The notes beneath the pieces are model-generated. The model saw nothing but the letters and a program-made list of their open reading frames with translations, was not told the DNA's origin and made no database searches. DNA of 64,000 nucleotides, taken from assembly GCF_000744225.1 (NCBI RefSeq), contig NZ_JQLN01000004.1, forward strand, positions 1,054,001 to 1,118,000, written 5' to 3'. The translations under genes and the position numbers were made by a program. The DNA is from Kitasatospora mediocidica KCTC 9733. Lineage in GTDB: Bacteria > Actinomycetota > Actinomycetes > Streptomycetales > Streptomycetaceae. Below are positions 60,012 through 64,000 of this stretch, one piece after another; the stretch's first letter is position 1; every line of letters starts with the position of its first letter.

Positions 60012-60506
60012 TCACACGCGGTCTCCGGCGCCCAGCACCCCCGCCGCGTCCCCGGTGCCGCGGGCGGGACCGCTTCGCGCGGGACCGGGGATGCGGATCT
60101 CCCCCGAGGCGCTCACCGCCTCCGGCGCCGCGGTGTTCAGGCGGCCGAGGCCGCTGCGGGTGGCGGCCAGCACCACGCGGTCGCCGGGCGCGAGGCCGCG
60201 GCTGCGGTCGGCGTAGCCCCACTGGTAGCTGTCCGGCTGACGGGCCAGGCGCACCGCGAGCACCCGCAGGCCGCCGAGCGCCTCGATGTCGTTGCGGCTC
60301 ATCCCGACCAGCGCGCCGCCGTCCTCCGCCGTCAGCTCGGCGATCAGCAGTACGTGCCGGTAGACCGAGAGCGTGCCCAGCACCTCACGGCCCATCAGCG
60401 CAGCCGCGAAGGCCGGCGCGGCCAGGTAGGAGACCGAGCGGGAGGCGACGTTGCCCAGCGTCGCGTAGACGTGTTGGGCGAAGTCGTCGTCTGACAGCTT
60501 CTGCAT
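60012..60506 (-). pseudogene. C-terminal fragment of TrkA-like (RCK_C) protein, truncated by integration
   Basis: The open frame gives 164 aa resembling the end of a TrkA/Kef-type NAD-binding potassium-channel regulator: a helical stretch (QHVYATLGNVASRSVSYLAAPAFAAALMG), then an RCK_C-like domain (GALVGMSRNDIEALGGLRVLAVRL, LAPGDRVVLAATRSGLGRL). There is no start region, membrane part or nucleotide-binding fold. Upstream, only 15 nt separate it from the integrase stop. It reads as the 3' remnant of a chromosomal gene into which the element inserted; the 5' part should lie beyond the far end of the element. Confidence 0.65.
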
Positions 60507-60530
60507 TGGATGTTGGCGTTGCTAGTCGAC
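60495..60530. other. Probable element-chromosome junction (attL or attR)
   Basis: Similarity to the TrkA-like protein stops at about 60506 and the integrase gene ends at 60522, so the crossover should lie within these few tens of bases. The exact core cannot be fixed without the other end or an empty-site sequence. Confidence 0.5.
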
Positions 60531-62081
60531 TTCCCAGGCCGGGATCACACTGACCCGCCGCCCAGGCAGTACCTCCAGGCGCCCCACGATCTTCCGCAGC
60601 AAGGCGTTGGCTCGGCCAGGAGCCAGCGTGTCCCACTCCTCCAGCAGACCTATCGCAATGGGCTGCGCCGCGGAGCGGCTCATCGCCGCTTTCTCCTCCG
60701 GGGACGGCGTGTCCAGCACGAAAAGCCTCTCGGCCGCCGCAGACTTCTCCGCCCGGAGCCCTGCAAGGGTCGCGAGGTACTCACGCTCCAACGTGCCATC
60801 AGCGTCGTCGAGTTCAGACATGGCATACGTGCGCATGTGCTTGGCCACCGCCCGCTCGATCCGCTGCACCTCCTGCTGAGCCGCCGCACGCCTGCGCTCG
60901 AACGAGGCCGCAGGGTCGGGGATCACCCGGCCGGCGGAAAGCGTGCGAGCCTCGTCGCTCACCTCGCCCGTGATCTTCTTGAGCCACCTGAGGAGCGCCT
61001 CGTCCCCCACGTTCACCGGACAAGTCCTGAAGCCCACGCAGACCGTGGTTCCCTTGCGCGATCGTTGGTCGCAGATGAAGTAGGAATTTCCGTGGACCAC
61101 GACGCGTCGCGTAGACCCGGAGCAGAGCCCGCAGCGGGCCAGGCCGCTGAGCGGGTAGGCCGCGGCGCGGTTCTTCGGGGCTGCGGTCCGCGTGAAGTTT
61201 CGGCGCTCCTGGTACTGCTGCCAGAGTTCGGGGCTGATGATCGGGGGGTGGCCCTTGGTCGGATGCCGGTAGAGGTGGTGGTTCGGGCATCGGCTCAGGT
61301 AGGGCTCGGTCTTGCATGCGTCGTCGTGGACACGCAGGTAGCCGGCCGCGAACCCGGAGTCCATGTAGATGCACAAACTGCGGTCGTTCCAGATCTTGTT
61401 GTGTGACGTTCGGATGCCGGCGGCGTTGAGACGGGCGGCCAGAACGTTGAAGCCGTCGCCAGCAACGTAGCCCTGGAAGAGATCTGCGACGAGACCCTTC
61501 GACTCCGGGTCGGGCTCGTAGTGCTCGTCCTGGAGTGTGACCGACCCGTCGGGGGCGTAGACCCTGCGGGGGTGCCAGATGTATCCAAAGCGACGTCCGC
61601 CCGTGGCGGGCAGCCCTTGTTCTCGGCGCCAGTGGTGGGTCTCGGACCATTGCTCTCCGGCGCGCTTGCTCTCGAATGTGGCGACACTGAAGATGACGTC
61701 GCGTTGGAACCATCCGGTGGCGGTGGTGGCGTCTAGGTCTTCGGTGGCAGAGAGCAGTTGGCCGCCCGCTTGTTCGATGCGTGCGAGGTTGATCTCGATG
61801 CCGGTCCTGGTCCGGCCGAACCTGGAGTACTTCCATACCGCGATGGCCTGCGCCTCGCTGGCTTCGACGCGTTCGATGGCCCTCATGATTTTGCGCTTGA
61901 AGTTGCGGCCGGTGGCGTCGAGGTCCTGGACCCAGTCGATGATCTGGTGTCCCGTACGAGCTGCCCACTGGGCGATTGCCGCACGCTGCAGCTCGGGGGA
62001 GATCATTTCCTCGCGTGCCATGCTGACGCGGATGTATCCGATCGTCGGGATCAGGTCGTCTGCGAGTTGGACTGAGCGCAT
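60522..62081 (-). CDS. Large serine recombinase (integrase)
   Basis: Protein of 519 aa. The N-terminal resolvase domain has catalytic Ser20 (GYIRVS) and conserved Arg in SRFGR (86-90). The recombinase domain is about 160-300 (GRRFGYIWHP, ISPELWQQYQERR). A zinc-ribbon follows, with Cys317, Cys320, Cys337 and Cys348, then a coiled-coil (about 392-450) typical of phage-type large serine integrases. It catalyses site-specific integration between attP and attB. Start ATG at 62081 has AAGGGG about 6 nt upstream. It lies 17 nt after the upstream stop, in an operon with a regulator. Not assignable to a named phage integrase from sequence alone. Confidence 0.93.
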   Translation of the reverse strand: MRSVQLADDLIPTIGYIRVSMAREEMISPELQRAAIAQWAARTGHQIIDWVQDLDATGRNFKRKIMRAIERVEASEAQAIAVWKYSRFGRTRTGIEINLARIEQAGGQLLSATEDLDATTATGWFQRDVIFSVATFESKRAGEQWSETHHWRREQGLPATGGRRFGYIWHPRRVYAPDGSVTLQDEHYEPDPESKGLVADLFQGYVAGDGFNVLAARLNAAGIRTSHNKIWNDRSLCIYMDSGFAAGYLRVHDDACKTEPYLSRCPNHHLYRHPTKGHPPIISPELWQQYQERRNFTRTAAPKNRAAAYPLSGLARCGLCSGSTRRVVVHGNSYFICDQRSRKGTTVCVGFRTCPVNVGDEALLRWLKKITGEVSDEARTLSAGRVIPDPAASFERRRAAAQQEVQRIERAVAKHMRTYAMSELDDADGTLEREYLATLAGLRAEKSAAAERLFVLDTPSPEEKAAMSRSAAQPIAIGLLEEWDTLAPGRANALLRKIVGRLEVLPGRRVSVIPAWEVD

Positions 62082-62098
62082 CGATTCCCCTTGCTTCC

Positions 62099-62677
62099 CT
62101 ACGGCGTGTGCACCCCATGGCCCGCCGCGTTCGGGTTGGATCCTATGGCCGCGCGGGGCATCTGGATGACAACGGCGCCTGTGGTGGGGGCAGTCGGCGG
62201 GAGGGCGATGCCTCGCAGGCCGGCATCAAACCCTTGGAGGAATCCCTGGCGCTTGAGGCTGGACTCGCGGTCCTCGACGTCGGCGAGGAGTTCCTCGCGC
62301 TCGGCGGCGGCGAGGGCCATCACCCGTGCCGTCTGGGATGCAAGGTAGGCGGCGTTCTCCTGCTCGGCGAGTTCCATGTTGCGGCAAAGCTCCTCGGCTT
62401 CGCGGTCGACGAAAGCCTTCGCCACGACGTACCGCATGTGCTCCGCCCGGGTCGCCTTCAGTTCTTCTTGGAGTCGGTCGCGTTCGTGCGAGGTGTCGCG
62501 GACGGCGCGGTCGATGACGTTGAGGGCGTAGGAGGTGATGCCGGTGAGGATGAGGGCGAGGCCGGCGACGGCTTGTGTGGGCGTGTGCGCGGGGATGGAC
62601 GCACTGATGACGGCCACCCCCAGGGGGAGTGATATTCCGGCCAGGAGGGCTCTGTAGGTTCGGGTCGTGCGTTGCAA
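62099..62677 (-). CDS. Mobile-element membrane protein with coiled coil, unknown function
   Basis: Protein of 192 aa with two hydrophobic segments at the N-terminus (ALLAGISLPLGVAVISASI and AVAGLALILTGITSYAL). A long charged helix follows (RDTSHERDRLQEELKATRAEH through LLADVEDRESSLKRQ). TTG at 62677 is chosen as start because GGGGAGA lies 5-6 nt upstream and the previous gene stops 13 nt before. The gene lies between the XRE regulator and the integrase, all in one direction. Family not recognised. Confidence 0.7.
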   Translation of the reverse strand: MQRTTRTYRALLAGISLPLGVAVISASIPAHTPTQAVAGLALILTGITSYALNVIDRAVRDTSHERDRLQEELKATRAEHMRYVVAKAFVDREAEELCRNMELAEQENAAYLASQTARVMALAAAEREELLADVEDRESSLKRQGFLQGFDAGLRGIALPPTAPTTGAVVIQMPRAAIGSNPNAAGHGVHTP

Positions 62678-62690
62678 TGCCGTCTCCCCG

Positions 62691-63131
62691 TTACTGGGCC
62701 ACCGCGCCCCCTGTCTCACCGTCGGACTCGGCGGGGCGCAGGTGGCGGCGCGTTCGACGGGCCACGTCCCGGAAGAACTGCTCACGCTCGTCCGGGTCGT
62801 GGATGCCTAGATCATCCGCTGCCTGCTCGGGGGTGATTGGCTGAGATCGTACGTCCGATCGCTGCATCCGCGTCAGGTATTCGGCGGAAATGATTCCGCT
62901 CTCAACCATCATGACGATCGGATCGACGCCGAGCGCCTTGGCGATCGGTTCATAGTACTCGGGGCTGGGGGTTGACTTGGCGTCAAGCCAGCGCGCGACG
63001 GTACTCGGCGAGACGCCGACGGCGGTGGCGAGGGCCATGCGGCCGCCTCCGCGCTGCTTGTCGATGTCGAAGCCTTCGGTGGCTCGCATCGTCTTGGCGA
63101 GCCAGGCTGCGTACTGCTCGTTGAGTGTCAT
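62691..63131 (-). CDS. XRE-family transcriptional regulator of the element
   Basis: Protein of 146 aa with a Cro/CI-type helix-turn-helix at about residues 30-68 (GGGRMALATAVGVSPSTVARWL, PEYYEPIAKALGV) and an acidic C-terminal part. Probably the repressor that keeps the element integrated; it heads the operon that includes the integrase. It faces a divergent Cro-like gene across 254 bp containing several TTCC/GGAA inverted repeats, its likely operators. Start ATG at 63129-63131; the ribosome site GGAGAG is rather far, at about 12 nt. Confidence 0.85.
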   Translation of the reverse strand: MTLNEQYAAWLAKTMRATEGFDIDKQRGGGRMALATAVGVSPSTVARWLDAKSTPSPEYYEPIAKALGVDPIVMMVESGIISAEYLTRMQRSDVRSQPITPEQAADDLGIHDPDEREQFFRDVARRTRRHLRPAESDGETGGAVAQ

Positions 63132-63192
63132 GCGTTTGTCATCTCTCCCATGGCTGGCAGGATAGCCGACCTGCTGGCGCCTGCGGGAGTAG

Positions 63193-63206
63193 TTCCACAA
63201 ACGGAA
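63193..63206. promoter_or_regulatory. Operator-like TTCC-N6-GGAA, site 1
   Basis: TTCCACAAACGGAA, upstream of the XRE gene. A -10-like TATCCT for that gene lies nearby (63164-63159, minus strand). The same spaced motif recurs at 63290. Confidence 0.5.
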
Positions 63207-63289
63207 TCATCCAGGTCAGAGCAGAGGCTACAGGCCGCTCGCGGGGTGTACGAGTCGAACAACCGACCCATCTTGGGACATCTCGCTAA

Positions 63290-63303
63290 TTCCTCATGTG
63301 GAA
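63290..63303. promoter_or_regulatory. Operator-like TTCC-N6-GGAA, site 2
   Basis: TTCCTCATGTGGAA, ending 4 bp before the -35 of the rightward promoter. Confidence 0.5.
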
Positions 63304-63307
63304 ATAC

Positions 63308-63336
63308 TTGCGCCATGGGCACTTGAGGCCTAGCGT
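63308..63336 (+). promoter_or_regulatory. Promoter of the rightward mobile-element operon
   Basis: -35 TTGCGC (63308-63313), 17-bp spacer, -10 TAGCGT (63331-63336). Good match to the housekeeping-sigma promoter pattern of Streptomyces. It lies between operator sites 2 and 3. Confidence 0.6.
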
Positions 63337-63348
63337 TGCTCCCATCAA

Positions 63349-63372
63349 CGGAACTACTTCCGAAAACGGGAA
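63349..63372. promoter_or_regulatory. Compound operator-like inverted repeats, site 3
   Basis: CGGAACTACTTCCG (63349-63362) is a perfect 5-bp-arm palindrome. It overlaps TTCC-N7-GGAA (63358-63372). It lies just downstream of the expected transcription start, where bound repressor would block the rightward promoter. Confidence 0.5.
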
Positions 63373-63385
63373 CAAGAGGTGACGC

Positions 63386-63607
63386 ATGTCCCACCGCCTC
63401 AACATCCAGAACCTCCGCGCAGCAGCCGCTGAGGTTGGGGACCTCAGCGACTACGCCATCGCCAAGCGAACCGGCCTCGGCAAGTCGACCGTCTCCCGCC
63501 TCGCCAACGGCCTGTGCCAGCCCAACGCCGCAACGCAGAACCGCTTCCTGGACACCTACAAGCTGCCCATCAACAAGCTCATGACCGACGAGCAGGTCGC
63601 AGCATGA
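63386..63607 (+). CDS. Small Cro/XRE-like DNA-binding protein
   Basis: Protein of 73 aa that is almost only a helix-turn-helix (SDYAIAKRTGLGKSTVSRLANG, QPNAATQNRFLDTYKLP). Ribosome site AGAGG lies 6 nt before the ATG. First gene of the rightward mobile-element operon, divergent from the XRE repressor, as in a phage cI/cro switch. It could act as anti-repressor, excision control factor or replication regulator. The next start overlaps its stop (ATGA). Confidence 0.82.
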   Translation: MSHRLNIQNLRAAAAEVGDLSDYAIAKRTGLGKSTVSRLANGLCQPNAATQNRFLDTYKLPINKLMTDEQVAA

Positions 63608-63822
63608 CCACCCGCAAGGAAGCCATCAGTGCAGCCGCTCTGATCCTCGTGCAGGCCCGCGCCGAACGCGACGCTCTCAGTCCCCGCAAGGCCGCCGAGG
63701 CCGCCTGGTACCCGGGCCACCGGCTCGGGTCCGTCGAGGCGATCGAGGCCCTGATCATCAGTCAGCGCAAGCAGGTGCTCGCCACCCAGCAGGCCCACAC
63801 CATCCGTCCGCTCGCCGCGTGA
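63604..63822 (+). CDS. Small mobile-element protein, unknown function
   Basis: Protein of 72 aa, mostly helical and charged (RKEAISAAALILVQARAERD, VEAIEALIISQRKQVL). It overlaps the previous gene by 4 nt and the next by 4 nt, so it is a real member of a tightly coupled operon. No family recognised. Confidence 0.7.
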   Translation: MTTRKEAISAAALILVQARAERDALSPRKAAEAAWYPGHRLGSVEAIEALIISQRKQVLATQQAHTIRPLAA

Positions 63823-64000
63823 GCAACGAGGACGACGTCAACTACCTGTACGTCATCCGGTTCGCCAACGGCATCGTCAAAGTCGGCCGGACCAACGACA
63901 TCCGTCGACGGTACAAGGACCACAAGCGGTGGGCCAGACAGTCCGGCACCACCATCGATGAGATCGACTTCAGCTTCCGCTACGGCACCGCCGGCCCCGA
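63819..64000 (+). CDS. GIY-YIG-like nuclease domain protein (3' end outside window)
   Basis: The first 60 codons are in view, from the GTG at 63819 overlapping the upstream stop (GTGA). The start reads YLYVIRFANGIVKVGRTNDI then RRRYKDH, the pattern of a GIY-YIG or T5orf172-type domain: an initial Y-x-Y strand, VGRT and a following Arg-rich helix. Such domains occur in homing and phage endonucleases. The rest is off the edge, so activity cannot be judged. Confidence 0.6.
   Translation, partial: MSNEDDVNYLYVIRFANGIVKVGRTNDIRRRYKDHKRWARQSGTTIDEIDFSFRYGTAGP

Follow-up and report, generated by a model that had tools for sequence, protein, structure and literature searches.

Which gene has been interrupted at the right end of this stretch of Kitasatospora mediocidica KCTC 9733 DNA, and by what kind of element, is the question raised by a short open reading frame (ORF) that lies against a large serine integrase gene. 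The window, that is the whole stretch of 64,000 nucleotides analyzed here, corresponds to C4:1054001-1118000 of the genome (G000; 8.68 Mb in 7 contigs). A preliminary description, made from the letters of the window, had proposed an integrative element inserted in a TrkA-like gene at the edge of a gene cluster. Our results indicate that the element is very probably a tailed, temperate phage, about 92.7 kb long, that was integrated via its serine integrase by recombination between the phage and bacterial attachment sites (attP × attB) in a conserved gene coding for a TrkA_N-domain protein.

The interrupted gene and its junctions

The short ORF codes for 164 amino acids (aa). It was matched at E<=0.001 in 39 of the 41 genomes searched, its own included, and in all six relatives where the frame was read it forms the C-terminus of a frame of 607-659 aa, so that it is not a chance ORF; in one of these six (L015/G024) the homology is limited to the C-terminal half and the frame is broken upstream. 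The full-length gene codes for about 620 aa in relatives, and the case that would have contradicted a truncation, a complete homologue of just 164 aa in related strains, was not encountered, the orthologues being of about 600 aa. No Pfam match was found in the remnant at E 1e-3. The orthologue of relative G005 contains TrkA_N (5.9e-29, in two stretches), and TrkA_C (RCK_C) was not detected in that full protein at 0.01. The ORF had been described as the remnant of an RCK_C protein: it is indeed the truncated 3' end of a TrkA_N-domain gene, as the orthologues and the 5' part show, but the RCK_C label finds no Pfam match.

The missing 5' part lies outside the window, 92.7 kb to the right on the same contig. 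Residues 1-485 of the G005 protein align there with C4:1207226-1208656 (-) at 80% identity (4.2e-243), and this part itself carries TrkA_N (1.3e-31); it comprises about 478 host codons if the start is C4:1208656. The same query gave only two further matches in the genome, both weak (29-37%), and consequently the host lacks another good copy of the TrkA-like gene. With TrkA_N in the orthologue and the 5' part at the far end of the element, the proposed insertion in a TrkA-type gene is supported.

On the + strand, attL reads GAAGTCGTCG-TC-TGACAGCTTCTGCATTGG, with its core at window positions 60490-60491 (C4:1114490), and attR reads CCAATGCAGAAACTGTTA-TC-GAAGAGCCGC, with its core at C4:1207221-1207222; the element measures 92,731 bp from core to core. 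At the crossover, attL and attR are identical over an uninterrupted run of just two bases, GA when read in the sense of the gene. Joining the two phage halves gives a 38-bp attP directly downstream of the integrase gene (int), made of two 18-bp arms around GA, in which 16 of the 18 arm positions are symmetric, a degree of symmetry reached by none of 5000 shuffled sequences. In this short attP the inverted repeat that flanks the 2-bp overlap is imperfect, and the sequence of attB differs from that of attP. The crossover (TTC|GA|C) falls inside the codons for RLFDDDFA, a conserved motif. At the junction with the remnant, codons 1-5 (MQKLS) belong to the phage arm and the host sequence begins at codon 6; the gap of 15 nt from the integrase stop to the ATG of the remnant is as first described.

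The preliminary description had proposed looking for the other end of the element and for an empty site in a related strain, and had regarded the lack of a far junction as a refutation. The far junction is present at C4:1207221, joined to the 5' part of the gene, and the site is uninterrupted in relatives G003 and G005, with which the host flanks, taken to the core, align without gap or overlap (14570|14571 and 15246|15247, respectively). The host arms were also compared with the loci of 19 relatives, those with loci from the remnant search among the 38 with a match, and 19-24 of 25 bases were identical on each side; this search was anchored on TTCG, with TTC and G obligatory and A free.

The integrase has Pfam matches to Resolvase (PF00239, 1.3e-18) and Recombinase (PF07508, 3.8e-9), and in its long C-terminal part the Recombinase domain is accompanied by a zinc ribbon (PF13408, 4.4e-4) that stays under the curated cut-off. 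The catalytic serine motif of large serine integrases is GYIRVS, and the N-terminal resolvase domain contains the catalytic serine motif. Residues R18, S20, R87 and R90 and cysteines C320, C337 and C348 are invariant in the five aligned integrases. The protein is predicted to recombine attP with attB, and the genome shows the products of such a reaction, attL and attR. A search of the PDB with the integrase gave no match.

Gene content of the element and a second prophage at its site

We scanned 52 proteins of the element against Pfam or PHROGs, out of 122 mechanical ORF calls inside it, some of which are not genes. The element codes for a terminase (Terminase_6, 2.2e-21), a portal protein (phrog_2662, 3e-62) with NUDIX and MuF domains, a capsid protein, a tape measure protein (8.2e-100), a pectate-lyase-like fibre and a weak Dit match below the cut-off, together with DnaB (3.5e-101), single-stranded DNA-binding protein (SSB) and RusA. 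The integrative element of the preliminary description is thus more exactly a prophage of about 93 kb. Portal, NUDIX and MuF are found in one frame of about 1000 aa (L032:8008-11046; C4:1178007-1181045); a mechanically called 1452-aa "portal" ORF was rejected, its first third being the terminase gene in another frame. Such a fusion is partly known from the Arthrobacter phages Sonali and Mufasa8, as the Sonali protein is annotated "portal and MuF-like fusion protein". In these phages the portal-NUDIX protein is 42-44% identical over 66% and 56%, and the capsid protein about 41% over 99% (Sonali 40.7%); both differ in size (60-61 kb), and the comparison covers these head genes only.

The element also codes for a Gp3-like protein of 393 aa (L006:10297-11478) carrying PF18897 (8e-39), as does the phiC31-type gp3 recombination directionality factor. 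It matched eight phage records, mu1/6 being the closest (69.9%), followed by others including SF3 and VWB. Phages mu1/6 and VWB use tyrosine integrases, and for this reason membership of the family does not prove a role as directionality factor, for which the protein is a candidate only. SSB may possibly act as a directionality cofactor, by analogy with TG1, for which the available text of PMC12924846 reports such a role.

Other genes of the prophage include one for a Thg1-like tRNA-His guanylyltransferase (L007:16286-17080, 7.4e-19), a second, small resolvase-domain gene of 242 aa (L008:1799-2527, PF00239 4.6e-8), a vWA-TerF-like gene (L006:15361-16119, 7e-61) with a 50% relative in genome G071, and, at L008:15763-18728, a gene for a DUF2637 protein with an FtsK/SpoIIIE-domain gene behind it, to which the G071 prophage has relatives of 68% and 55%, respectively. 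When 10 element proteins were analyzed with PADLOC, two had helix-turn-helix (HTH) domain matches, the FtsK-type protein had weak matches to mad8 and SspH, and seven had none.

Genome G071, another of the genus, contains a mosaic relative at the same site. Its integrase likewise abuts a remnant, with the gene's 5' part about 82 kb away. The two prophages share the gene, the codon and the inferred GA centre; the G071 attL and attR have 13 bp in common, and its attP is symmetric around GA at 12 of 16 arm positions by our own count on the sequence letters. Identity is 57-58% for the integrase, 65% for the repressor, 66% for the Cro-like protein and 67% for DnaB, and reaches 86.9% over 122 residues for SSB (L006:14820-15320). 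The G071 prophage differs in its length of about 82 kb, in the sequence of its attP arms and in its head genes, whose similarity is distant and confined to part of their length (26% for portal, 28% for capsid). Among 132 mechanical ORFs of a 100-kb stretch, 39 (37 of them inside the element) were matched by tblastn in the stretch from G071, with control, early and replication genes among the most similar and portal and capsid among the least.

Integrase relatives were found at E<=1e-60 in 5 of 70 genus genomes and at E<=1e-90 in 16 of 394 family genomes, the own genome counted in both; the 394 were drawn from a larger group, and up to three candidates were scored per genome. A scan of genome_contigs gave no relative, and viral_contigs one, at 41%. 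A TrkA-like gene adjoins the integrase in G000 and G071 only, within downstream flanks of about 1.3-1.6 kb (47 bases in L071, a second G371 copy, which was excluded from the tree). The other integrases are flanked by genes for acyl-CoA ligases (acyl-CoA synthetase), exonuclease III, Mg-chelatase, an LLM oxidoreductase or a LysE-type protein; these names were given by eye from translations and not by hidden Markov models, and 4 of the 14 bacterial tree loci besides G000 and G071 are ambiguous. In the integrase tree (n=18) the two integrases at the TrkA-like gene are sisters (support 86/81), the next being that of G044, beside an acyl-CoA ligase gene (80/60), and the clade of four with G117 has support of 100/100.

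The mechanism is standard large-serine-integrase integration, of a known kind. The attP of the phage, with its 18-bp arms around GA, has very probably recombined conservatively with attB in the TrkA_N-domain gene, and integration has split the gene, leaving its 5' part at the attR end and the 3' remnant at attL. A divergent repressor/Cro-type switch beside int would then maintain the lysogen, and excision would require a directionality factor, possibly the Gp3-like protein.

Among known phages, the integrase matched 346 records, all below 60% identity. Eklok and others were the best of the 20 records listed (45.6%), and SV1 reached 43.3%; the 20 listed records, with those of the SV1 integrase (g27), Eklok, Cumberbatch and SoJo as the closest known systems, range from 42.5 to 45.6% over 93-99% of the integrase. 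The modules of SV1 and Eklok are alike, with two small genes and then int on one strand and a divergent HTH gene; both of their small genes are annotated hypothetical, whereas here one codes for an HTH protein. The SV1 genome is 37.6 kb, against 92.7 kb here. As the available text of PMC4068962 describes it, the SV1 attP also lies just downstream of int, with a shared centre of 4 bp instead of 2 bp.

Weighing the alternatives

Some observations weigh against an integrated temperate phage with this attachment site. The base left free in the host-arm search is A in 18 of 19 relatives, and L012 has GG for GA; the GA centre in G071 is placed within its 13-bp shared stretch by symmetry alone; the pairing of the two integrases at the TrkA-like gene is moderately supported; no free phage with this attP was found in viral_contigs, where the exact pattern only was searched; and lysis genes were not recognized among the 52 proteins scanned. 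The last point, together with the many ORFs without assignment and an uncertain directionality factor, agrees with a prophage that is correctly placed and has decayed past excision or particle formation. Against such an immobile prophage, both att sites are still present, and the integrase, switch, replication and head-tail genes are all open frames without internal stops; we regard it as rather unlikely.

An integrative conjugative or mobilizable element was considered in place of a phage. Genes of the FtsK/SpoIIIE-domain and DUF2637 types occur in actinobacterial conjugative elements, and both are present here, but so is a head-tail set with terminase, portal, protease, capsid, tape measure, fibre and a weak Dit, and no relaxase or type IV secretion system gene was found among the 52 proteins scanned of the 122 ORF calls. 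It is very unlikely that the element is of this kind.

We also considered whether the prophage might switch the TrkA-like gene reversibly: excision at some growth stage would restore the full gene, and in the lysogen the C-terminal domain would be made from the int transcript. The phage arm does supply an in-frame ATG 15 nt past the integrase stop. In the G071 arm, by our own reading, the ATG does not share the reading frame of the remnant, and several of the 70 genus genomes lack the gene or have it broken; both count against such a switch, which seems most improbable. In that census 68 genomes had a match at E<=1e-40, and the halves of the gene are separated by distance only in G000 and G071. 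G021 and G051 have no such gene at this threshold and just a short or weak match at 0.001. In G024, G041 and G055 the pieces adjoin in place, with sequencing errors possible. G059 retains a decayed 3' part alone; it was rejected as a third occupied site, since its remnant extends past the crossover point and is accompanied by a weak upstream piece, pointing to decay in place. A gene that these genomes lack, or have only in a decayed form or broken in place, looks dispensable.

With the genome assembled into 7 contigs, an assembly error or unrelated rearrangement might have parted the two halves; given the exact 2-bp overlap, the symmetric attP, a right flank colinear with relatives and the same arrangement in G071, this is extremely unlikely. 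Finally, it is practically impossible that the 164-aa ORF is a small gene in its own right, placed beside the integrase by coincidence, as its ATG, stop and open frame would allow: its ATG and first five codons lie in the phage arm, and the part that it lacks compared with its much longer orthologues is at the far junction. The arrangement is thus best explained by integration of a temperate phage.

The neighbourhood of the integrase and the novelty of the target

Table 1. Features at the right end of the window, in window positions unless marked C4.
Feature	Position	Strand	Basis or remark
3' remnant of TrkA_N-domain gene, 164-aa ORF	60012..60506	-	C-terminus of ~600-aa orthologues
B' half-site, attL host arm	60465..60489	-	19-24/25 bases shared with every one of the 19 relatives' loci
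Crossover dinucleotide, GA when read along the gene, TC on + strand	60490..60491	-	attL/attR identity, inverted-repeat centre
P half-site, attL phage arm	60492..60509	-	attR partner arm C4:1207203-1207220
Large serine integrase, 519 aa	60522..62081	-	Pfam domains, relatives, alignment
Small gene between repressor and integrase, 192 aa (start uncertain)	62099..62677	-	no Pfam; 38% relative in G071 prophage
HTH repressor-like gene, 146 aa from ATG 63131; alternative TTG start 63200	62691..63131	-	HTH_31
Three operator-like sites GGAANTACTNNCG	63184-63196, 63300-63312, 63350-63362	-, +, +	pattern matches
Cro-like HTH gene, 73 aa, divergent	63386..63607	+	HTH_31 7.3e-6, 26.6 bits vs cut-off 27
Small coupled gene, 72 aa	63604..63822	+	no Pfam; 4-nt overlap with predecessor
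T5orf172/GIY-YIG-like gene, 112 aa	63819..64000, on to C4:1118157	+	4-nt overlap with predecessor

The phage-like switch and small coupled genes of the preliminary description are recognizable, by sequence, in the divergent HTH pair and the 4-nt overlaps (Table 1). The HTH_31 match of the repressor-like protein is 4.6e-8 when scanned from 63128 and 7.2e-8 from 63200. The operator-like pattern has only three matches in 100 kb, all between the repressor-like and Cro-like genes; it was derived from those very sites, so that the count speaks for their rarity and not for their function. The G071 stretch has two matches in 87 kb, one at the repressor start and one within the integrase gene. This repressor/Cro-type switch beside int, with its operator-like sites, presumably keeps the lysogen stable.

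To the left of the remnant, G003 and G005 cease to be similar near window 60113-60121. Beyond the gene, 13.9 kb of G003 and 14.5 kb of G005 have no match in the window at 1e-10, yet they match each other. This break of synteny near the 3' end of the gene is consistent with the TrkA-like gene as the right border of the neighbouring cluster. Giant overlapping ORFs of up to 8057 aa occupy window 1-51815 on both strands, as would be expected for high-GC modular genes, likely with one coding strand per stretch.

No report of a TrkA-like gene as integrase target was found in the open literature searched, to which the supplements of large catalogues, which may list it, do not belong; the word "TrkA" is absent from the main text, as available, of PMC12884075, PMC12924846, PMC10083194 and PMC7460540. 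The insertion site had been called unfamiliar, and it does differ from the targets named by gene in the accessible text of PMC4068962, PMC5311408, PMC12924846 and PMC7460540: SCO4383 for SV1, SCO4848 for phiBT1, and orthologues or likenesses of SCO2606 for phiJoe and of SCO6481 for Samy. What is new is this target, the RLFDDDFA-coding motif, and the predicted int/attP/attB set. A pattern for the site, 23 bases long and based on sequences from this genus, was found in 50 of 64 genus genomes, in 48 of them within the orthologous gene and in G061 and G071 within a paralogue alone; of 136 other genomes of the family, 4 contain it.

The predicted set could be developed into a tool for single-copy integration in this antibiotic-producing genus. 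Furthermore, two mosaic phages at one coding motif, with related integrases in other genes, provide a pair for studying how serine integrases change their target.

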